64,000 nt of DNA from Bimuria novae-zelandiae CBS 107.79 (lineage: Eukaryota; Ascomycota; Dothideomycetes; Pleosporales; Didymosphaeriaceae): contig ML976664.1 of the NCBI GenBank assembly GCA_010015655.1, positions 798,675 to 862,674 of the forward strand, read 5' to 3'. The notes beneath the pieces are model-generated. The model searched no databases and was not told the DNA's origin. It saw only the letters and a list, made by a program, of their open reading frames with translations. Numbering within the stretch: the stretch's first letter is position 1; the number at the start of each line of letters is the position of its first letter. The translations under genes were made by a program, and so were the position numbers. Below are positions 8,021 to 54,674 of the stretch, one piece after another.

Positions 8021-8203
8021 TGTAACGGTATTTAGATTATTTATTGTCGCCTATGTTAGGTTACTGCTGCCTACACTCATTTACTGCTGCCTACACTCAT
8101 TTACTGCTGCCTAGCCTGCCTAGCAGTATATATCTTAGCTACTACACACATACAATTAAATCAGTGTTTTCCCGACTTTCGCTTTGCAGCAACAACCGCT
8201 ACA
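8021..8203 (+). repeat. Copia 5' LTR
   Basis: 183 bp, TG to CA. It matches 13,119-13,283, and the last 75 bp are almost identical. It contains 2.6 tandem copies of a 20-bp unit starting TTACTGCTGC (8,061-8,112); the 3' LTR has one full unit fewer. The AT-rich first third is more RIP-changed in the 3' copy. Confidence 0.9.
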
Positions 8204-11200
8204 ATTATAAGCCCGGATTACGACGGGATCTCACTCACCTAACTTATTACCTACTCACACATAGAGTAGAGAGACCTGACCTACTAGCCTACTTATATAT
8301 AGAGTAGAGCAACCTGCGAGCACGATAACTACTAAAGCAGACCTAGTAGTTATAAAGGTAATAATTATACTTAGCTAATTAGAAGATTAGCATAAATAGT
8401 TATTTATTTATAAAGATATAGCGCAAAAGAATTAACTTTAGAAGTACGTTAACCTAGATATTATAATAGACTAGCTACCTTAGCTAGAGGAGCTAACAGA
8501 ACCTTAGCTAAGTAATTATAACTAGTAAGCTATATTATATACTAGCATAAATACTAAGTAGTAAGCTAACTATTATTAGGCGTATAAGTAATAGGAGAAA
8601 AAGGATCTAAAGTATAAGCGTTAGCTTAAGGCTTTAATAGACTTTAATTTTAAGATTAGTAAGACAATAGCAGCGCATTATATATACCTAATTAAAAATA
8701 AGGATACGCCGCACTAATAACTTATAACCCTTAAAAAATATCTTATACTATTAGATATAACGCGCTACTATAATTTAATAGTAAAATATAAAGATCTTTA
8801 GATACTGCCAAAAGGTAGAAAAGTTAAAAAGTAGCTTTAATATTAAATTAAGGTTACTAGCTAGTGTAAGGCTATTAAGCTTTTAAAAACTAAAGATACC
8901 TGTGCGCAGGAGGACTTCCTAGTTACTTATAAAATAATTAACCCTAAATACGAAACAGCAGGTCTATGAGACCTAATCTAAAAAGAAAAGCTTAGTATAA
9001 AAGTCTTATTAGTAGAGAACTCTGTTGCTAAGTTCTTAGCATACCTAAAGCGTATATATCTAATTAGTATAGGCTTTAGTGCACACGCGGCAGAGCTAGA
9101 AATAGTAAAGCTAATAATACTATAAAATAATAAACCTTCTTAAAGTGGTATATGCCTCTATAGTAAAAGATACTTATAGTCTAAGTGCTAAGTAATAAAC
9201 CCTAACGCTCCTAATTAACCCTAAGGATATAATAATAAGGAGGCTAATAAGAAAGTAGTAATAGCCTTTACTAAGAATCTAAGCTTAAAAGCAAGAATAA
9301 AAAAAGCTATATAAAACTAGAAGGTAACTTAGTTAAGCTCTAAGTTAGTAGTTACTATTAATAATAGCAAGCCTCCTTCTAATCTATTAACCTATACTAT
9401 ATAATATATAGTGTTTAATACTATTATAGTTAATAAGTACGACAAGCGCGATAAGCGCGATAAAGATCTAGTACTTAATAATAACGTTAAATCTATAGAA
9501 AAGCTAGTAGCTCTATTAACGCTTAATAATGTTAGTAGTTATAACTTATTAAGTAATTAATTTATACTCGATCCTAGCTTAAATACTTATATTATTAACA
9601 CGGAGTCCTAGCCTAAATAAATAAAAGTGTATAAGGCTAGTGCTAACGACTTCGTAGGAGTAGGAATAGGCTATATTAAAATAACTATATAGGGTAGCAT
9701 AAAGCTCACTATAAAAATACTAAAAGGACTATTACCTATTATCCTAATATATATTACCTTAGTTAAAGGCTTCTTAATAAGCCTTATAGGCTTAGCACGC
9801 TGTCGCTTAAGTTAGATTTACTTTAACTTAAGATAAGATTTACTATATAAAGTTAGTAAAAACACTATAGTTATATAGCTAGAGTATAATAATAGCTACT
9901 AGCTAGTTAACGCTAATACTAGCTATTGCCTAGATATACGCCTATTATTATTCTTTAGCATAACCTACTAACCTTTAAAGGACCCTTAACGTAACTTTAT
10001 AGTTAACTATAGGATAGCCTATAGCACCTAGGGTTATTTTAGTAAAAAGGCAATTAAGAAGCTAGCTAACTATAGAAAAGGCTTATAAGTAAAAGGACTT
10101 CGCACCTAAGAAGTTCTATCACATTGTTATAGACTTTATATAGCTACTACCTCGAGAGGCAGATTCTTGTCTTAATAGTAACTAAGTTATAGGTTATATA
10201 GTAAATTAGTATAGCAAGTAGCATAAAGTTAACTACTTTCTATAGCGTATAAAGGCATTCCTAAACTACTAGCTTATTTATAAAATTTACAGGATATAGC
10301 GTATCTTTAATAGTAATATTATTATAATTAAGACTAATAATAACTAAGGATACAGAGTTATACTAAACGTATTAGAGGAGCTCTACGCGGAGTTAGGGAT
10401 TTAATATAAGCTATAGGTAGAGTATATAGATAAGTAAAATAGCCTTACAAAGCAAGTAGGCAAGACTATTATTATTTAAGCTTAAGCTATAAGGCTTCAA
10501 GGAAACCTACTAAAGTTATTATTAAATAAGCTATTTAGAACAGCAGCATATATACTAAACCGTATACTAACTAAAGCGCTAAGATGGAAGACTCCGTATA
10601 AGATTATATAGGGATTAAAGCTAAAAGTAAACTACCTACGCCCTATAGGCTGTCGAGCATACGTTTAGAATCTATCTATTAAAAAAGGCAACAAGCTCGA
10701 GTCTAGAGCTCTAATTAGCTATCTAGTAGGCTATAATTTAACAAATATCTTTAGGATCTAGCTACTTATAAAGGATAAAGTAATTTAAGTAAAAAACGTT
10801 ATTTTTAAACTAACGCGATTTTACAAAGGACTAAAAAGCTATATAATAAAGTTAATTATTAAAGAAGTTATAAAGCTGCTTGCCTTTCTAGAAGAAGCTA
10901 AATCTAATAATATTACTATTAAAGAGCATATAACGCTTAGGCAGACACGCGATAAGACGCGTAATAAGACTTATAACGTACCTATAGCTATAGCTTACGC
11001 AAGCGAATAGTAGGTAGGGGGTAAGAGTAGAATTAACAAAATTAATAGAGTCGACGAGGACGTAGAGGATCTGTTTCTAGGAGGTGGGCTACCTACGCCT
11101 ACGTCACCTGCGCCTTACGTAAGCCGGCAACGGAACAACGATACTCTGGTCAAAGTTCTCCTAGTAGAACAAGATCTAGAAACAATACCACAAGAGCTCT

Positions 11201-13118: not shown

Positions 13119-13283
13119 TGTATAATAGTATATAGATTATTTATTATTGCCTATATTAGGTTACTACTATCTATACTTATTTACTGCTGTCTAGCCTGCC
13201 TAGCAGTATATATCTTAGCTACTACACACATACAATCAAATTAGTGTTTTCCCGACTTTCGCTTTGCAGCAACAACCGCTACA
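13119..13283 (+). repeat. Copia 3' LTR
   Basis: 165 bp, the partner of 8,021-8,203. Differences from the 5' LTR are mostly C to T and G to A, plus the loss or gain of one 20-bp unit. It follows the polypurine tract at 13,107-13,118. Confidence 0.9.
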
Positions 13284-13285
13284 AT

Positions 13286-13535
13286 ATAGTTTAATAATTT
13301 CTTTATACTTCTCCTACTCCTTATAGTTAACTTAACACACTATAAGTATATCTCTTATAATAGATTAGTAAATCTCCTAGTTAGTTATTCTATAGTTTAT
13401 TATAGAATTAAATTATTTTTAAAACCTACCTTATAGCTATCTTTAGCTTTTAATTATTAAATATCTATAAGACACTTCTCCCTTAACCTATCCTCTCCTA
13501 ATCTAGACCAGGCTTAGGTACGTAGGATCCTTATA
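13286..13535 (+). repeat. Direct repeat copy 1 flanking the minus-strand gypsy
   Basis: About 245 bp clearly related to 18,694-18,935. Both contain the blocks TAGTTAACTTAA, TAGTTATTCTATAG and GGCTTAGGTACGTA in the same order. Copy 1 is more AT-shifted. They may be LTR remnants or two copies of another repeat; I cannot decide. Confidence 0.6.
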
Positions 13536-16500
13536 ACCTATAGCTCCTAGCGCGTAGTCTAATGCGTTAATATAGATATAATACTGCCGCTCTAGGTTAT
13601 ATATTTATAATAATAGCGCGGTTAAGAATAGGTACTTTAGTTTCTTAAAAGCTTTTATTTTGTCTTCCTATAGTAGTCGCTATTTACTATTCTTTATAAG
13701 TCCTGTTAATAAAGCAGTTATCTTAGAGTAGTTCCTAATAAATTTACGATAGAAGTTAGTAAAGCTAAGAAAAGACTAAATGTCTTTCACTAATTTTAGT
13801 AAGGGCTATTCTTTTATTATTATAATCTTTTTTAAATCTATCTTAATACCTTCCCGGTATATTATTAATCCTAGGTATTTTATTTCTATAACGTAGAACT
13901 TACACTTCTTAGGGTGTAGGAGTAATCTATACTCCTATAACTTCTTAAGTACCTTCTAAATATGCTCTTTATGTTCATTTAAGGAACTATTTAAATAAAT
14001 TAACATATTATCTAGATATGCTGTATAGAATACATCTAAGTATTTATATAAAACTTAGTTTATAAGTTCCTAAAAGGTTACTAGGGTGTTTGTTAATCCT
14101 ATTAGTATAACTATATACTTGAAAAGGCTATATCGCGTGCGAAAGGCGATTTTCTATTTATATCTTCTTATTATCTATATCTAATAGAATTCTAGATATT
14201 AAACTTCGTGAACTATTTAGCTCCTCTAAGTCGGTCTATAAGCTCTATAATTAAGGGTAATAAGTATTAATTTTTAACCGTTAGGGCGTTTAGCTATTTA
14301 TAATCTATATAAAGCTATAACCTGCTATCCTTTTTTAACATAAAGAGTATTAGGAAGGCTATAGGACTCTAACTAGGCTACTATTTCTTAAAATATAAAT
14401 TCTTTTTTAATAGTTCCTTTAACTTTCTTTTTTAGTTTTATGTAAGGGGTCGCAGGCGCTCTAGCCATAACTTAGTTTTTTTTACTAGTAGTATCTTATA
14501 ATTTTACTTTTAGTATTTAGGTAAGACTATCTTGTTATATTTCTTAAATAAGTCTATAAATTCCTTGTATTTTGCTAGCAGACTAGGGTTCTTGTTAACT
14601 ATTTTAGCTAATTATACCTATAAACAGTACACCTATTCTAGGTGTTACTATAGGATCTTATTTATCTTATAAACTAATATTTTTTATATTATAGATGTGT
14701 TGTTCTCCTTTCTTACCTAAGGCTCCTAGAGGCTTTCCTTCCACTGTGGCTCTATTGGAGCCGTCACGGGTGGTTTCCTAGGTAGGATTATTCTAGTAAG
14801 CTAATATATCTCTAGATTATGCTACTTAAGCTATTTATAACTAATAATAGCTTCTATGTCTCCTATTTCAGCGATAGTAAAGACATGCTAGCTTTTTAAG
14901 CCTTTAATATTAACTTATACTAGCGCTGTCTCTAGGCGTAGCTAACTATTATTATATCTTTATAATTAAGTCCTGTCTACGAGTCCTATTCATAATAGTA
15001 TTTCTTTATTATAATAGGGTATATTATACCTTTTAACTACTCCTAGGACTATTAGATATATATTTACCTTTAGGTTAATAAGTGCTCTAATACGATATCT
15101 ATATATTATAATATCCTTAATTAAGCGTTTCTTAATTTAACGAGTATCTACTTAATAAGCTATAATAATTATACTATTACTAGTGTGGCTTATTAATTAG
15201 TAATATTTTATTTTTTTAAGTCCTTAGGCTCGCTGTCTAGATCCGTAGCTTCCTAAATCTAGTCCTTAACCTAAGCTAGTTTTAAGATTTCTTTAATCTT
15301 ATACTCTTTATAGCGTTAGTAGTATATACTATAAGCTTTTTAGCTTTTATTAGATTCGTATACTCCTAGTAACCTATACTAGTAGTAGTTTAGAGTAAGG
15401 TATTTGTGCCTTATAAGCTTATAGTAGCTTAATTAATCTTTAGAAGAGGCTACTTTCTCTTGTAGGCTTAGGTGCGCTAAACACTATAGGTGACACTTAT
15501 ATTATTAGATAGATAAGTAGGTTTCGTGTCCTGTCTAGACCACTCTTATGACACCTTTTAGGTCGCGGGGGTCTATGTCGCGCGGGAACTATCTAGTTAC
15601 GTATTTCTATTAGGCATAGATTTCACAAGTATCCTTAAAGCACCTATACTATCCGTTCTACTTATAGTATTTTATCTAATAAAGTAGAAAGTATTTATAG
15701 TAGTTATTAAGTATCCTATACTAGTCTTTACTTACTTAATAATAGTTTAGGTTACTAGGGGTGCAAGCCGCCTTAGCCTGTCCTTTATAGTACTATTAAT
15801 ATTTTTTTTAGTATATTACTACTATTCTGCACGTGCGTGTTACTTAACTATTATAATCTAATATAGGTAGTGTACTAGTATCCCTTATATTTTTTTCTAC
15901 TAGCTAGTAGGCGTCCTAAGTATATAGTCCTTATACTATTATTTTCTAAGTATACTAAGATAGGTAATATAGCCTATTATTATATACCTAGCATGTTCCT
16001 TCTACTAGTTAGCTAAAAATATTATATTTTTATAGAACTATTCGTTCTTCTACTTATTTTATTAGATTAAGAATCTCCTATATAAGGTCCTTAATTTTAT
16101 TAGCTAAGGGAAGGGTAGCTATTACTACTATAAGGAGGTTAGTTACATTAACCTCCGTCTTTAGCTTTTTATAGTCTCTAGTAAAATGCCCTTATTCTCC
16201 GTAATAAAGGCATGCTTTATTCTTACATTATTATTATTTTTTTTAAAGAGATATAGAGTTATTGCCTTACCTAGATCTTTTAAACTTCTAGTTTTAGTTA
16301 GTCTGTTTCTTGTGCTAATAGGCTTTATTAGCTATAATAATATCTCCGTCCCTATCGCGGATTACAGACTACGCATAATTCTTTAATCTTATAAATATAT
16401 GTCCTTTACGTTACTTGTCTTTTTTCCACTTGTACAAGCGATTATTTACCTTTATAGCTTAGATAATAAGTTTCTCTAAATTATTAAGTTTTTTTAATAG

Positions 16501-18708: not shown

Positions 18709-18935
18709 TTTCTCTGTACCTTTCCAACTCCTCGTAGTTAACTTAATATACTACGAGTATATCTCTTAGTTAGTTATTCTATAGTTTATTATAGAATTAA
18801 ATTATTTATAGAACACCTTGCTATTGCTATTAAGCTCTTAACCACTAAATATATCCGCAAGACATATTACTCTTAACCTATCCTCCCCTAATCCGGATCA
18901 GGCTTAGGTACGTAAACCCCTTGTAATAATAGGAA
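18694..18935 (+). repeat. Direct repeat copy 2 flanking the minus-strand gypsy
   Basis: Partner of 13,286-13,535, less RIP-changed. It starts directly at the edge of the pogo fragment and ends GGCTTAGGTACGTA. Confidence 0.6.
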
Positions 18936-26665: not shown

Positions 26666-26821
26666 AGCTAGTAATCTTCTATAGCTCTATAAAATCTTAA
26701 CTCTAGAAAATTTCGCGATAAAAGCTTTTGTGTAAAACTCTACAGCCTTATGTTGCTGGCTGCGGTGCTGGTGTTGGGGTGGCGCGTTATTGTCGTTTCG
26801 TAAAATCCCGCTACACATGTA

Positions 26822-26917
26822 CTCGGCCCCTAGCGGTCGATATCGATTTTTCTCCGAAAAAGGCCGTGCGGAGCACGGCCCTACAAGCTCAATGGGCCAC
26901 ACATGCTCAATGGGCCA
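26822..26917 (+). repeat. Left TIR of the pogo-like transposon
   Basis: 96 bp. It contains an inner palindrome GGCCGTGC/GCACGGCC and two copies of CTCAATGGGCCA. Its inverted partner is 29,311-29,406, with one mismatch. Confidence 0.93.
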
Positions 26918-26973
26918 GCTGCACTTTGATACCCACCACCACATCAAAACACGCCCTATTTACATCAAATAAA

Positions 26974-29241
26974 ATGCCAAAGATCACGAAGAGCATGTCC
27001 ACTTACCGATCCGAATGTGAAATTATCGAAAAACACGTTGTGGTGTTAAAGACTTTGACGCGGCCAAACATACGCGCATACTATCGCGATCGCAACATTA
27101 AGTATCTACGCAAACGCCTACAACGCGCGTTCAACAGCCAAAACAATAGGTTAATAAGGCCGCCTACTAATAAAAAGCTCTCTGGTGAATAAGAGCTTGC
27201 TCTCGAACGTTTTTGCGATACAATAGACGATATTAGATTTGGCATAACAAAGGATTTGGTGCGTGGGCAAGCAGACGCTCTGTTGGCCGCAGTGCACGAA
27301 GGAGATGACCCACCGCCGCGTGTAGGCGTCCACTGGGCATCTAGATGGCTGGATTCTCATACAAAATACTACAAGGCAAAGGCAAAGCCAATTGACCTTG
27401 CACGGAAGCTTGCCCAATCGCCGGAAGGCCTTCAAGCCTGGTTTAATAAGCTGGCTGAGTACAAACAACGCAGGGCCATCACCGACGCAAACATGTACAA
27501 TATAGATGAAACAGGCGTGCGTATCGGTGTTGCAAAGTCGTCCTACGTATACACAAAACGCGGGCAAGATATATTAATACCCACTGCAACAAACAGGGAG
27601 CTTATTTCTCTTGTGGAGTGTTGCGCTGCGGATGGCCGTTCTATTACTCCTATGCTTATCATCAAGGCAAAGTCGATACTCGAGCACTGGGCCGTAGATC
27701 TGCCTAGCAATTACCTTATAAACGTTACAGATACAGGCTACAGCAACGATCATACAGCCATGGATTGGATACAGCACTTTGAAAAGATGACCTTAAGCAA
27801 TATACATGGGCAGTGGAGGCTCCTACTAATCGACGGCCATGGATCTCACCTGACGTACGAGTTTGCTGCTTTTTGTGAGAGTCACAAAATACAGCTGTTT
27901 ACTCTCCCTCCGCACACTACTCATCTCCTCCAGCCTCTTGACGTAGGCTGTTTTCAGCCTCTGAAGTGGTATCACAGCAGGACGCTTGATTGGGCCTCAC
28001 GTACAGGCTCAACAGAAATACGACGGGTAGATTTCTTAGCAATCCTCTCACAAATCCGCCAGCAAACGTTCACTGCTCGAACAATACGCAGCGGGTGGAG
28101 GCGTACAGGCCTATCTCTATTCTGCCCCAAGCAGGTACTAGGGCCTTTAAGGGCCCAAGAGGCTATTAATACTAATGAAAACGCTACTAGGGAGGGCGAT
28201 AACGGGGAGCGGCCTGTTACTCCTACTATTACGTCCTCTAACGAGGAGGGTAAGTTGCCTTTACTTAATAACCTAACGCCCTCCACACGCGGCTACTTCC
28301 TTAATTAACTACTTAACGCGATTAGTACACCTTAGTTTAAGAAGCTCTCTACACCTTTTTAAACGCCTTAGCCCCGTATAGCGCCTAGAGATATTAGTTA
28401 GAGTACACTAAAGACAGTCCGTATACTAAATTTATAAGAGAAAGCTATTGCCTTTATACTTAGGGAGTTACTGCCGCGCGAGGTAGCGGAGGACGTGATT
28501 TTAACACTTAAAGGCAGCTCTGCAATGGCCCGCAACGCAGCAGGCCTTGAGCAGGCCTTACACCGTACCCAGGCTGCCGAGCACGCTCGTAGTGAGCGTC
28601 GTAGGCGTAAAAACCGTACTGTCGACGTCGGCGGAGGTGCTGTTTACGCAGAAGATTGCCGTAAAATGGCTGCTCAGCGGGTGATCAACGAGGCCGCCAA
28701 ACAAGAAGCAGCAGTGGCCGCTCGTCACCTCCGGGCGCTCAGCAAGCGTATCAACACCTGGAAAAGGATACGTCCAAATATACGCAACTGGGGTAAGAAA
28801 GCAAGCAAGCGTTATGCTGAGGGTCTTACAATTACACAGAATAACAATAAGTGGACCTACACTGGCCCTACGATCAAGTATGAGCGCGAGGCCTGGGAGT
28901 ACAGAGTCGAGGACCCATCGCGCGCGGAGATCTTCCGAAGATTGTATGAGAACTCTATACAAAGGTTGGAAAGCAGAGGCAAGTTTCGGGCAGATCGATC
29001 GATCGCTGACGGCCCGTATGGCGCTGCTGAGCTTGGCCTGATGGCCCGCTGCTCCATGGATCCATATACAATATTGATACACCAAAAAGGACGCTCTGAG
29101 GTCAAGCAGGAGGCAATTGTTCAAGTCCCAGATAGTCAATTCACCATACAAGAGACCCAGGTCGTCAGCAGCGACGACGATAAAGGCTACTCAAGTCCAT
29201 TTGAAGCACTAAATGCAGCAGAAGCTGATTGGGGCTTCTAA
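26974..29241 (+). pseudogene. DDE_1 (pogo/Fot1-like) transposase, about 755 codons, seven in-frame stops
   Basis: The ATG at 26,974 (MPKITKSM) opens one reading frame that runs to the TAA at 29,239-29,241. The N-terminal part is a basic helix-turn-helix/CENP-B-like DNA-binding region. The catalytic triad is visible as YNIDETG (about 27,501), LLLIDGHGSH (about 27,820) and QPLDVGCF (about 27,940). The C-terminus is a long charged, coiled-coil-prone tail. Stops in this frame are a TAA at 27,190-27,192 and six (TAA, TAG, TAA, TAG, TAG, TAA) between 28,306 and 28,437; all are one C-to-T change from CAA or CAG. Open frames that seem to start at 27,256 and 28,495 begin at GTG codons and are not separate genes. 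Confidence 0.9.
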
Positions 29242-29310
29242 GCGACAATTTACATACGGGACGATGTATTTTACATACAAATTACTATACAAATCGCATT
29301 TCGTCACATT

Positions 29311-29406
29311 TGGCCCATTGAGTATGTGTGGCCCATTGAGCTTGTAGGGCCGTGCTCCGCACGGCCTTTTTCGGAGAAAAATCGATATCGACCGCTAGGG
29401 GCCGAG
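29311..29406 (-). repeat. Right TIR of the pogo-like transposon
   Basis: 96 bp, inverted partner of 26,822-26,917, followed by the TA duplication. Confidence 0.93.
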
Positions 29407-29639
29407 TAACCTGCCCCGCGCATTAGTAATCGATTCCTACGCGTTATTTAAAACACGGATTTACTAGCTAAATATTAACTTTTTAATATATTATAAGAAT
29501 CTAAAAGTCCTTAATAGGGACTTATAGTAAAGCTAAGTTACCGCTAACGGTGTTGCAGGCCATAATTAATTAATTAAATAATAACGTTAGCGACACCTAA
29601 ATCTAGAGAAATATAAAAGTAGCTAAGATAATAATTAGG

Positions 29640-35955: not shown

Positions 35956-37353
35956 TGCCTGCTTCGCGCCTTGAGAGCCTCTCTCTCCAATTAGACTTAC
36001 CAGACTTGCCAAGCATGCGGAACAAGTCAATGTACCCTTTCGTCATTGGCCAGCAGCAGGTCCCGTCTGGATTGTTCCTTAGCTCCTGCAATACTCTCTC
36101 TTTCAGCGAATTCGTCATGCGGAATTTGTAAGCAGGTGGGTGGTATGTGTGAAGGTAGTATATTGTGTGTGTAATTGTCTGAGTTGCTCTGTGTGTTGTT
36201 CTGTGTTGTGTTGTGTGTACATGGAGTGATCAGAGGCTCGTATATAGAGATAGAGCTGACTCATGAGACTAGTGTCGTCATGTGACATATCTCTGGGCTG
36301 CTTACAGAATTCTTTCAGCTCTCTTCTTTCCATATACTCCGCTATGGCATCTTCCAATTGGCACTGTATCTCTTTGTCTAGATTCAGTGAAGCGATGAAG
36401 GACACATGCGAGGCCAACGTATCGCCCAAGTCTTTAAACTGATCCGACGATCTCGGCAGAACTTTCCAATCTCGCCGCATCTGGTGCTCTGACAGTGTAA
36501 AATGCGTAATGGCGCGTTTCTCAAGCCGGTCTCGTCTGAACGTCCCCAGAATCTCTAGGGCGTAATCGGTTTGTATCCTCAGATCCTTCGCTGGCTTTAT
36601 AACAAGCTGCATGAGCAGGTCTTTGTACTGTCGGCGGACATGGAACCAGCGGTTAAGCCGTATTTGTTGTTCAAGGTACCGTACGAGTTTTGAAAAATCA
36701 ATCGATATCTCGAAGATATCACATGCGGTGTAGGAGTCCTCGCTCCAGGCATACAAGCTGCCAGTGTCTGTTTCGATTTTTTCGAGATCGGTGTGGAATG
36801 TGATGAACATGATGAATACCAGGACTGAGCGGAGAAGCTTTACCGCGTCAATGTTACTCTTGATCAGCTGAGTCAATCGCAATCCGTAGTCAGTGTCCAC
36901 GTGAACAAGAGGGCTCTCCTTCGACTTTTGGGGAGACTTGATAACGTTGCCTTCCTCTTTTGATATGAAATTTTCGGCAGACTTCGTAACGGAACCATCG
37001 TCGATTGCTGCGCCTGTATTCTTGTTGAACTTCTGAATAGAAGCCTCCACGTCTTCTGCGGTAGATTCGGTGTATGGTGGAGGTGGTATATCCGAGTCGC
37101 TCATCGGCTGAGCTGTTCCTGTAGCTTCGACGCCTCTTTCGGCGCCGACCCGTGTTCCTTGTACGATACTCTTCATCCGGTCTCGGATGTTATTACGTTT
37201 GGAGGCGTCGCCATCGTTGCAGCGCGTGCTGGATCTTTGGCGCTGACTCGGTGCAAGAGCAAGATTCGCCGAAAATTCCAAGATCTCGATCGGACGGTAC
37301 CTTTTGCGACTTTGTTCTGTCCTCGGAGTACGTTGTGTCCTTTTATGTTCCAC
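35903..37353 (-). pseudogene. Hypothetical protein gene interrupted by an antisense introner
   Basis: The frame runs from 37,353 to the element at 36,306. After removing the 180-bp element plus one 5-bp duplication it continues without a stop to 35,903, giving 421 aa. The N-terminal third is polar and disordered, with a PPPPYTES motif that could bind WW domains; the middle and end are helical and charged (YLEQQIRLNRWFHVRRQY; EDAIAEYMERRELKEF). No family is recognised. As it stands, the minus-strand frame reads into the element and stops three codons after leaving it. On the minus strand the element has a GTAAGC donor but no AG at its far end, because this target begins with A on that strand; the AGs just downstream do not restore the frame. 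The gene is therefore probably truncated in this strain, unless unusual splicing occurs. The start could also lie in an undetected upstream exon. Confidence 0.6.
36127..36306 (+). mobile_element. Introner (intron-making element), copy A
   Basis: 180 bp, the same base for base as 53,747-53,926. The ends are TGTAAGCAG and CTGCTTACA, a 9-bp inverted repeat extended imperfectly for about 20 bp. GAATT flanks it (36,122-36,126 and 36,307-36,311). On the plus strand GTAAGC (36,128) to ACAG (36,307) would make a GT-AG intron, but the host gene runs on the minus strand. Confidence 0.92.
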
Positions 37354-37867
37354 GCTCGCGATATTGGGATCCTAGACTGCCGTTGAACCACGGAACGTCA
37401 TCACACACTTGGGTCAACGCTAAGGCAACTAATCTAGCCACGCTTCTATACACAATCATACCATAGGTATGTGCACATTCCCTGGGGGAACACAATCCGC
37501 AAAACGCCCATAAGTCTTGGTACGTATAGGCGGCCCTGGATGAAGACAACCTACAATACGCCGGTACATCCTCACACTCAAACGTCGGCCTGAGTGAACA
37601 CAATATACAATACGGCCATAGTTATTCGCAGAAGTGCGCTATCCTGGTGAAAACACTCACGGCTGATACCGATCTCATAATCTCGAATTCACGCCTTTGC
37701 TGGACCCCATTCAAACCATTTTTATTCAAACACAGGAGCAATCCGAGACAAAGCTTCTCTTTTTTGCGAAGCTAGCCTATATAAGCACGGCTGTAGCCCT
37801 CAGTTCAATCAGCATTACCAAGCAAGCGTTCTTTGGACGATAACAGAAGCACCGCTAACAACTCACC
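37354..37867. other. Intergenic region with divergent promoters
   Basis: It lies between the divergent gene 35,903-37,353 (minus) and the BTB gene (plus). Two loosely similar stretches occur at about 37,480-37,550 and 37,545-37,615, each with AATACG and CACA words. No coding frame is supported. Confidence 0.4.
37787..37794 (+). promoter_or_regulatory. TATA box of the BTB gene
   Basis: CTATATAA lies about 75-80 bp upstream of ATG 37,868, in the sequence GCCTATATAAGCACGG. Confidence 0.5.
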
Positions 37868-38462
37868 ATGAGCGGTGTGAATTTAGGCGTGTTAAATGCG
37901 GCTCGCGCACTAGAGTAAGTTAGTTACAAAGAAACTGCTCAGACTTTTATTCAATCCTGAAGCCTGGGGTCATTTGATCCACGATACAACGCCAACCTCG
38001 AAGCGGGATTCATAAGCATCGCATAACGCGTGTACTGTATGTACTGACTACAATAGCTTCTCTAGGAACTGCAAAGTCACCGTAGGAAAGGATGAAAACC
38101 AAAAGTCATTCTACACACCGATGTCTCTGCTCTGGGACCGCTAGAAGTTTGCCGACAACGCTTTGAAGGGCCACTGGGTTGAAGGGCAGACTAGAGAGCT
38201 AACGCTCTCTGACGATGATCCGGAGATATTTGCGTCGTACCTTTATCTGCTATATGGTCGACCACTGCCGCTGAAGAGTGTGCAGCAAGGTAGAGACACG
38301 CTGGAGTTGAAAGACCGTTACCAACAATTTCACTTGGAGTGCGACCATCTTTGTCGTTTGCACGTTTTTGTCGAAAAGTTTCAAGACGTGCAAGCCAAAG
38401 ATAGCACCATCGGGATTTTGATCAACCGCATCGAACGCGACCACATGATCTACATGCCCAGA

Positions 38463-38582
38463 GTTGGCAACAATCAAGCGATAGGCAGATTGATTACCAG
38501 ATTAGAACTGGCACGGACGTGAGGGTGATCTTTCAACGCTTAATATAGTAATCAATCTGCCTATCGCTTGCTTGTTGCCAAC
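38463..38582. repeat. 35-bp inverted duplication (hairpin) in the BTB pseudogene
   Basis: Arms 38,463-38,497 and 38,548-38,582 are reverse complements with one mismatch over 35 bp, with a 50-nt spacer. One arm is coding in exon 2, and the other copies it in antisense. Confidence 0.85.
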
Positions 38583-38757
38583 ACTGTACATGCCGACCCC
38601 GAGTGCTGTCAAAATAATTTACGACGGCACTGTAAGAGACTCTCCCGCTCGTTGCCTTATGGTAGACGTATACCTCAACTTCAGCGAACAGAGCCACGGC
38701 CAGGTTTTTACCGAGAACCATGTTCATGATTTTCTTCAGGATCTATTGAGAACCTCG

Positions 38758-38926
38758 CTTGCAGGGTGTCTAACGTACCGTACTCTTGGCGTACGGTTAG
38801 TAGTTCCGTACCGTGCACGGTACACATAGTGGTCTTCAGGAAGAAAAAAGGACAGTGAATGGTCTGTGCACAGTACGGAACTGCTGGCCGTACGCCAAGA
38901 GTACGGTACGTTGGACACCCTGCAAG
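38758..38926. mobile_element. MITE with 61-bp TIRs
   Basis: 169 bp that start CTTGCAGGGTGTC and end with its complement. Arms 38,758-38,818 and 38,866-38,926 match with only a few differences (T/C). TCG flanks both sides (38,755-38,757; 38,927-38,929). The empty site keeps the BTB reading frame (..RTSLEWKNS..). It has no coding capacity; the TIR CTTGCAGGGTGTC may allow a parent element to be found elsewhere. Confidence 0.88.
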
Positions 38927-53463: not shown

Positions 53464-54674
53464 ATGAGACGCTCAATGCACAGCTACATAAACCCGCAGC
53501 GGCGCTTCAACGTTCCAGCACGCGGACAGGTTCACAAGGCACCACCACTCGCCATGACAATCACCAAATTCATCTCGACCACCCCAGAGCTTGCTCAAGT
53601 GCTCGGAGGTCTCAATCTCAGCACGACCGTGCCGCCACACCTCTATGTCGATCTCGAGGGCGTCAATCTTTCCCGCAACGGCTCGATTTCCATTCTCACG
53701 CTCTACGACCTCTCTTCAAAGACGGTCTTCTTCATCGATGTGTTCATGTAAGCAGGTGGGTGGTATGTGTGAAGGTAGTATATTGTGTGTGTAATTGTCT
53801 GAGTTGCTCTGTGTGTTGTTCTGTGTTGTGTTGTGTGTACATGGAGTGATCAGAGGCTCGTATATAGAGATAGAGCTGACTCATGAGACTAGTGTCGTCA
53901 TGTGACATATCTCTGGGCTGCTTACAGTTCACCTTGGGCGACCTCGGCATGCGCCAACTATGCGGAGTCCGAATCTGACGAAGAGGACCTCAACGCCTTG
54001 GGAGCCGAGGAGTTTGTGGACCGCATGAGCAGCTTCGGCACCAAGCCGCACTTCATCACGCTCAAGAAGATTCTAGAGTCGACGGAGATCCCGAAGGTCT
54101 TCTTCGACGCTCGCAACGACTCCGACGCGCTGTTTGCTCACTTCGGCATCAAGCTGCAGGGCGTGCAGGACCTCCAGGTCATGGAGCTAGCTAGTAAGTC
54201 CACAACTTCCTTCTTTCTATAATAAAGCGGGCGTGAGAGTGAAAGTGATACTGACCCGTCCCAGCACGCAGCGGCCGCAACCGTGAGCGCGTCAACGGCC
54301 TCGCAAAGTGCATCCAATTCGGCCTCATGAACATCCTCTCGCCCATCCAGCGCAGCCAGATCCAGACGGTGAAGGACCGCGGCTCGAAGCTGTTCGCACC
54401 CGAGAAGGGCGGCTCGTTCCACGTGTTCAACATGCGCCCGCTCGACAACATCCTCCTGCACTACTGCATCCAAGACGTCGTGCACATGCCCGCGCTCTGG
54501 CACCGCTACAATTTGAAGCTTCGGATCCGTTTCTGGAAGTTCGTCGTCGAGATGGAGACGAACAAGCGTCTCGAGGAGAGTCGTAGTGCGGGTTATGTGC
54601 CGCAGGGCTCGCACAAGAGCTTGGGCTGGACGTGGGAGTATCTGCGCCACTTGGAGCGCAAGTGGAATGGTTAA
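53464..54674 (+). CDS. 3'-5' exonuclease-domain protein containing an introner intron
   Basis: Exons 53,464-53,747, 53,928-54,193 and 54,265-54,674 give 319 aa. The first intron is the 180-nt introner, the second a normal 71-nt intron (GTAAGT..CTGAC..CCCAG). An internal Met at 53,554 (MTITKFISTTPELAQVL) is an alternative start. The family's first acidic motif is HLYVDLEGVNL, followed by ISILTLYD and FFIDVF. After a loop rich in Asp/Glu come TLKKILESTEIPKVFFDARNDSDALFAHFGI and LQGVQDLQVMELA, with the second conserved acidic residue in FFDARND. The third exon begins TRSGRNRERVNGLAKCI. Such DEDD-fold proteins cut DNA or RNA from the 3' end; the substrate here is unknown. The 35 residues after FFIDVF are not family-like. 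Reading through an empty site would shift the frame and stop 17 codons on, so the history of this junction is unclear. Confidence 0.8.
53747..53926 (+). mobile_element. Introner (intron-making element), copy B
   Basis: 180 bp, the same as 36,127-36,306. It is flanked by GTTCA (53,742-53,746; 53,927-53,931). The intron removed would be 53,748-53,927: GTAAGC comes from the left end, and the acceptor is ACA of the right end plus G of the duplication. Branch-like CTGAC and GTGAC sequences lie 56 and 26 nt or so before the acceptor. It is in the sense orientation of its gene. Confidence 0.93.

Follow-up and report, generated by a model that had tools for sequence, protein, structure and literature searches.

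The window, by which we mean the whole 64,000-nt stretch of Bimuria novae-zelandiae DNA analysed, contains a 180-nt insert in a 3'-5' exonuclease gene. Read directly from the window sequence, the insert occupies positions 53,747-53,926, has inverted ends TGTAAGCAG and CTGCTTACA and is bordered by a 5-bp duplication (TSD), GTTCA. These properties were correctly described in the first-pass annotation, in which the insert was interpreted as a transposon-like introner forming an intron. The identical second copy reported there is also present, at 36,127-36,306, with a duplication of its own, GAATT. The features of the two loci, with the basis of each, are as follows.

36,115-37,371, minus strand: conserved protein of unknown function, frame open from stop to stop (homologues)
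36,122-36,126, no strand: left copy of the TSD GAATT (window sequence)
36,127-36,306, minus strand: second solo LTR, identical to the first, inside a minus-strand coding frame, which is the retroelement sense strand
36,307-36,311, no strand: right copy of the TSD GAATT (window sequence)
53,554-53,747, plus strand: exonuclease exon 1 from MTITK, if the LTR is read as an intron (PF01612 in homologues)
53,740-54,009, plus strand: 270-nt intron GTGTTC..CCGAG of the deposited NCBI model (P0001, BU23DRAFT_453458)
53,742-53,746, no strand: 5' copy of the TSD GTTCA, 5 bp (window sequence)
53,747-53,926, minus strand: solo LTR of 180 nt, opposite in sense to the exonuclease (strand assigned from PBS and PPT)
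53,748-53,927, plus strand: candidate LTR-derived intron GTAAGC..TTACAG, 180 nt, in frame, with consensus-like sites and leaving 5 nt more than the empty site
53,927-53,931, no strand: 3' copy of the TSD GTTCA, its first G being the potential last base of the acceptor ACAG
53,928-54,193, plus strand: exonuclease exon 2, if the LTR is read as an intron (homologue alignment and frame)
54,265-54,674, plus strand: exonuclease exon 3, ending at the stop codon (window sequence and frame)

The two window copies match at all of 181 nt, the last of these being a G common to both duplications. At the second copy, the minus-strand frame remains open across the LTR and ends shortly after it, with loss of the conserved C-terminal part of the protein. 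The corresponding empty-site frame has 427 codons and would encode that part. Pfam returned no match for this empty-site frame, homologues being found nonetheless, and 7 of the 7 that were aligned (8 were found, P0129 lying outside the alignment) are continuous across the insertion point. The second copy therefore hit an exon. On the strand first read by the annotation the LTR is antisense in this exon and no acceptor is present at its end; this copy sits in its gene's coding frame in antisense orientation, which is not an intron-like setting. The two copies are thus on opposite strands relative to their genes. Segmental duplication, a possibility raised in the first-pass annotation, is ruled out as the source of the two window copies, the flanks being different and the duplications separate (GTTCA and GAATT).

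Other repeats are present in the window. An element of ∼2.6 kb at 26,820-29,408 has 98-nt inverted ends that are 99% complementary, and contains an ORF (27,256-28,308) which, by eye, we take to resemble a pogo/Fot-type DDE transposase. Two neighbouring long hairpins are located at 38,453-38,592 and 38,758-38,926, with 52-nt arms 88% and 61-nt arms 92% complementary, respectively. Dispersed direct repeats, 78-93% alike, are observed at 13,367-13,536 and 18,756-18,926 and at 8,061-8,205 and 13,141-13,285.

The genome-wide copy search that had been proposed was run with a 23-nt probe from the 5' end of the LTR. Allowing up to 3 mismatches, it detected 167 matches, far more than two copies, and the reversed control gave 0; many of these end matches form same-strand pairs. 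Within the pairs the inner flanks are constant: GGCCGGGCTCATAAC precedes one copy, and the other is followed by CACCCCCTTCAGGTT or by a TTTAGG variant. Other copies are flanked by the 5-bp duplication only. LTR/interior junctions of the two types, numbering 43 and 41 at up to 3 mismatches, combine into 29 same-strand pairs 4.0-8.7 kb apart, with 15 of the 29 at 5.23-5.29 kb. Among the matches listed, 123 of the 167 could be placed, 29 with one LTR type, 23 with the other and 71 with neither. Full elements with two direct LTRs around one interior are represented by, for example, L041, L042, L044, L046 and L047.

In the three elements inspected, the opposite strand shows GTTATGAGCCCGGCC immediately after the LTR. 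The first 14 bases of this sequence, GTTATGAGCCCGGC, constitute a PBS directly after the LTR in 3 of 3 elements inspected and are perfectly complementary to GCCGGGCTCATAAC in the organism's own tRNA-Met(CAT) genes, a tRNA identity given by 3 of the 5 pattern loci examined, which were called tRNA-Met. A longer tRNA pattern, GGCCGGGCTCATAACCC, had 0 matches in the genome while the shorter pattern matched tRNA-Met. The PPT, GAAGGGGGTG, is positioned directly before the other LTR, that is before TGTAAG, in 2 of 2 elements inspected. A half-tRNA-iMet PBS is the type of Drosophila copia, and TG..CA ends, a 5-bp TSD and a PPT are general features of Ty1/Copia LTR elements. The positions of PBS and PPT identify the retroelement sense strand as the minus strand, and the LTR is therefore antisense in the exonuclease gene. 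The inverted ends, originally read as transposon TIRs, are instead the extended TG..CA termini of the LTR. A TIR DNA transposon or MITE, considered as a candidate, is ruled out by the LTR pairs, PBS and PPT.

Assignment to the superfamily is supported by a 104-bit match to RVT_2 (PF07727), C26:53105-53752, located between paired junctions and on the expected strand, the overlap being judged by eye. Such a match was listed inside only 1 of the 29 pairs, 150 of 1053 candidates having been scored. Protein evidence for Copia from the decayed interiors is weak: stop-free pieces gave 0 Pfam matches in 7 at a cut-off of 0.01, and a lax cut-off produced weak matches to SH3_retrovirus (0.085) and rve (0.17) for 1 of 4 interior pieces. 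Some interior pieces resemble integrase, Copia RT and RNase H, as judged by eye, and the order of the pieces was judged in the same way. The decay itself is RIP-like: in the 15 pairwise comparisons among the interiors of six 180-nt-type copies, transitions number 220-361 and transversions 1-9, with 56-69 transversions additionally separating the two LTR subfamilies. Combined, these results indicate, with a probability of about 95%, that the 180-nt element is a solo LTR of a RIP-mutated Ty1/Copia-type retrotransposon.

Two further aspects of sequence change were observed. RIP-like change declines toward the element edges: the proportion of variable columns is 0.10-0.20 inside and falls to 0.04 in the first bin and 0.02 in the last (interiors of L041, L042, L044, L046, L047 and L048; LTRs of these and of L045). 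When ten LTRs were compared with the window LTR, 10 of 1800 nt differed, all of them G>A or C>T, though the LTR is rich in CpA/TpG.

Solo copies are abundant. The 87 distinct left ends comprise 50 solos with a perfect 5-bp TSD, 14 (11 + 3) in full elements, 16 lacking a recognised right end and 7 lacking a TSD, a count in which deduplication by left flank merges 3'-type LTRs. A smaller locus set, from which 32 partial rows were excluded, holds 56 distinct full-length LTR copies, comprising 35 solos with a perfect TSD, 15 copies in full elements and 6 without a TSD. Solo length (n = 50) is 180 nt in 37, 149 nt in 9 and other values in 4. The target duplications are of varied sequence, with a first base of A in 22, G in 15, T in 7 and C in 6 of the 50 solos. 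A target beginning with G, which would complete an acceptor at the end of the LTR, is present at only 15 of 50 solos on the strand first read and 18 of 50 on the other, so the targets do not as a rule supply a ready acceptor. A preference for G-first targets that would favour acceptors was accordingly rejected, such targets being fewer than the 22 A-first ones and evidently not required.

The claim that the family consists of introners, a TIR/TSD family spreading by making introns, has several observations in its favour, the TSD, the inverted ends, many identical copies and one in-frame case. What survives of this claim is a mobile-element sequence with a TSD and many near-identical copies; an introner family is not supported, the LTR pairs, PBS and PPT identifying the sequence as a Copia-type LTR. 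Flank composition, orientation and target sites also argue against introners: in 6 of 35 solos neither flank exceeds 32% G+C, the window copies are oppositely oriented relative to their genes, and the G-first target is confined to the minority of solos given above.

The frame arithmetic points in the same direction. If TGTAAG provides the donor and the intron runs k bases beyond the LTR to its acceptor, the message is 6-k bases longer than that of the empty site; a G-first target gives k = 1 and 5 extra bases, which shift the frame. End-to-end splicing thus leaves +5, and therefore the family is not built as a neutral intron. Open-frame length served as a proxy for coding: in 10 of the 50 solos, the exonuclease included, the empty site is open for 150 codons or more (6 on the strand first read, 4 on the opposite); 19 loci had flanks of only ∼300 nt, in which long frames may be missed. 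In the 15 nt beyond the LTR, the first AG was frame-neutral in 0 of these 10 long-frame copies, and 5 of the 10 had no AG in that interval. GT-AG pairs were also listed for ten copies, namely L002 and the nine long-frame copies other than the exonuclease. A consensus-like pair that restores frame was found in 5 of the 10, always with an acceptor in host sequence 25-60 nt beyond the LTR. In 3 of those 5 the donor is the LTR's own GTAAGC, and the acceptor it pairs with is located 36-60 nt inside the host sequence, a frame-keeping arrangement that lends the introner claim some support. Both LTR ends served as a frame-restoring pair in 0 of the 10 listed copies. Contrary to the expectation of copies at intron positions in many genes, only the exonuclease copy can be read in frame from end to end among the copies tested by frame. 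The 6-k arithmetic and the pair listing argue against a family-wide intron role, which was rejected, and we regard an introner family as very improbable. To judge from these frames, rescue of other copies with host acceptors may be possible locally, and the LTR appears to bring no frame-neutral intron of its own.

Empty-site frames gave Pfam matches in 3 of 7 cases, to P450, methyltransferase and DDE_1. L055, at the same site as L005, breaks the P450-like frame (8.7e-11). The methyltransferase match of the L009 frame is near the cut-offs, and DDE_1 is matched by the empty-site frame of L035, an LTR without a TSD. As a separate observation, L083/L103 (G000:C148) is a diverged 149-nt solo LTR within a frame starting MPSFKRRPRSLRSS, and its LTR ends do not restore the frame.

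We propose that a full element inserted antisense into an exon of the exonuclease gene, duplicating 5 bp of target, and that recombination between its LTRs would then have deleted the interior, leaving one 180-bp LTR. The resemblance to an intron would arise from the inverted LTR ends, with a donor-like GTAAG within TGTAAG at one end and, at the other, TTACA becoming TTACAG before a G-first target.

The consequences for the gene depend on its frame. Removal of 53,748-53,927 yields DVFISPWATSACA followed by the conserved downstream exonuclease frame. When the next intron is also removed, the frame is open for 289 codons from MTITK (53,554), or for 319 codons, 30 more, if the upstream ATG at 53,464 is counted, and the 319-codon frame previously reported for removal of GTAAGC..ACAG is thus reproduced and consistent with homologues. 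In the alignment, homologues start at or near the MTITK position, the long P0008 excepted. An LGFAAFTT-like stretch (LGxxAFTT and variants) follows the IDV block in 9 of 9 aligned exonuclease homologues from other species; exon 2 in the window is without this stretch, ∼14-20 nt being missing by a length estimated from the protein alignment. The empty site, with the LTR and one TSD copy taken out, reads DVFTLGDLGMRQLCGVRI and then a stop, and is already out of frame.

These data are compatible with the LTR being a candidate one-off intron, of chance or selected origin. In this scenario the LTR would be spliced as GTAAGC..ACAG, the downstream deletion of ∼14-20 nt would compensate the gain of 5 nt, and protein would still be made. 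We consider real splicing quite possible, at somewhat less than an even chance. In its favour, the empty site runs into a stop, whereas removal of the LTR brings back the conserved frame downstream. From 542 GT-AG pairs examined in the gene, an open registered frame is kept by 21 and consensus-like sites are present in 2 of these 21, GTAAGC/TTACAG being one; both use the GTAAGC donor of the LTR. The LTR also carries CTGAC, a branch-like motif, at 53,876-53,880, and the gene retains the three exonuclease motifs. Set against this, a frame fits at random 1 time in 3, the deposited NCBI model, which has a weak-looking donor (GTGTTC), does not use these sites, and downstream of the branch-like motif, before the acceptor is reached, a CTAG was noted by eye at 53,889-53,892. 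In addition, the LTR is identical to its sisters, which would leave little time for a compensating deletion.

Alternatively, the exonuclease may be a pseudogene in which a frameshifting deletion and the LTR insertion both occurred and neither was rescued, a reading to which we assign nearly an even chance. Two disabling-looking changes fall within ∼15 nt of exon, the unspliced frame reaches a stop at codon 66, and other solos break coding frames, as established by homology for the second window copy and the P450-like frame. The remaining frame is nevertheless open, with 63-67% identity to the three nearest other species in the alignment, and reading the LTR as an intron brings an otherwise shifted frame back into register. 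The probability left by these two readings falls to some other splicing of the exonuclease transcript. More generally, the 9-bp inverted LTR ends could supply donor and, at a G-first target, acceptor in either orientation, and in the exonuclease gene the small deletion nearby could have compensated the +5. Intron birth from a solo LTR by this route is, judged from the sequence, conceivable but unlikely.

An insertion of 412 in Drosophila vermilion is reportedly a precedent. The family resembles the Ty1/Copia elements of Pezizomycotina in its LTRs, its RVT_2-type RT match and its RIP decay (PMC5445492). There, the fungal Copia element GalEa is reported without a PBS and FunCo1 as a tRNA-Lys type, whereas the PBS found here matches the inside of tRNA-iMet (half-tRNA type). 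In Arabidopsis, new exon insertions of ONSEN (ATCOPIA78) can be removed as an intron, and the LTRs are suggested to hold splice sites (PMC12112155). This reported splicing of a Copia element out of an exon lends support to the candidate intron in the exonuclease gene, which is likewise a Copia sequence in an exon; ONSEN, however, is full-length and its removal was seen in cDNA (PMC12112155), while the candidate here is a solo LTR. Introners are described as introns in many genes, some with TSD and TIRs (PMC9860276, PMC4457414). Like these, the present LTR is a short repeat that could in principle be excised as an intron, and it shares a TSD and inverted ends with some of them; in contrast, the present family consists of LTRs, leaves +5 nt and suits an intron position at the one site found. 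Most introner families are neutral for mRNA length and one adds 12 bp, and the term 'LTR' is absent from the main text of PMC9860276.

A literature search, of papers outside subscription, found no description of this Copia-type family or of fungal solo-LTR introns. As a Copia-type family, the elements are ordinary. They do provide a caution, in that LTR termini with a TSD can imitate a TIR/TSD introner when a single window is read. Splicing of the exonuclease LTR, if real, would represent a young, single-site intron gain from a fungal LTR retrotransposon in which both the cost to the frame and its repair are visible.
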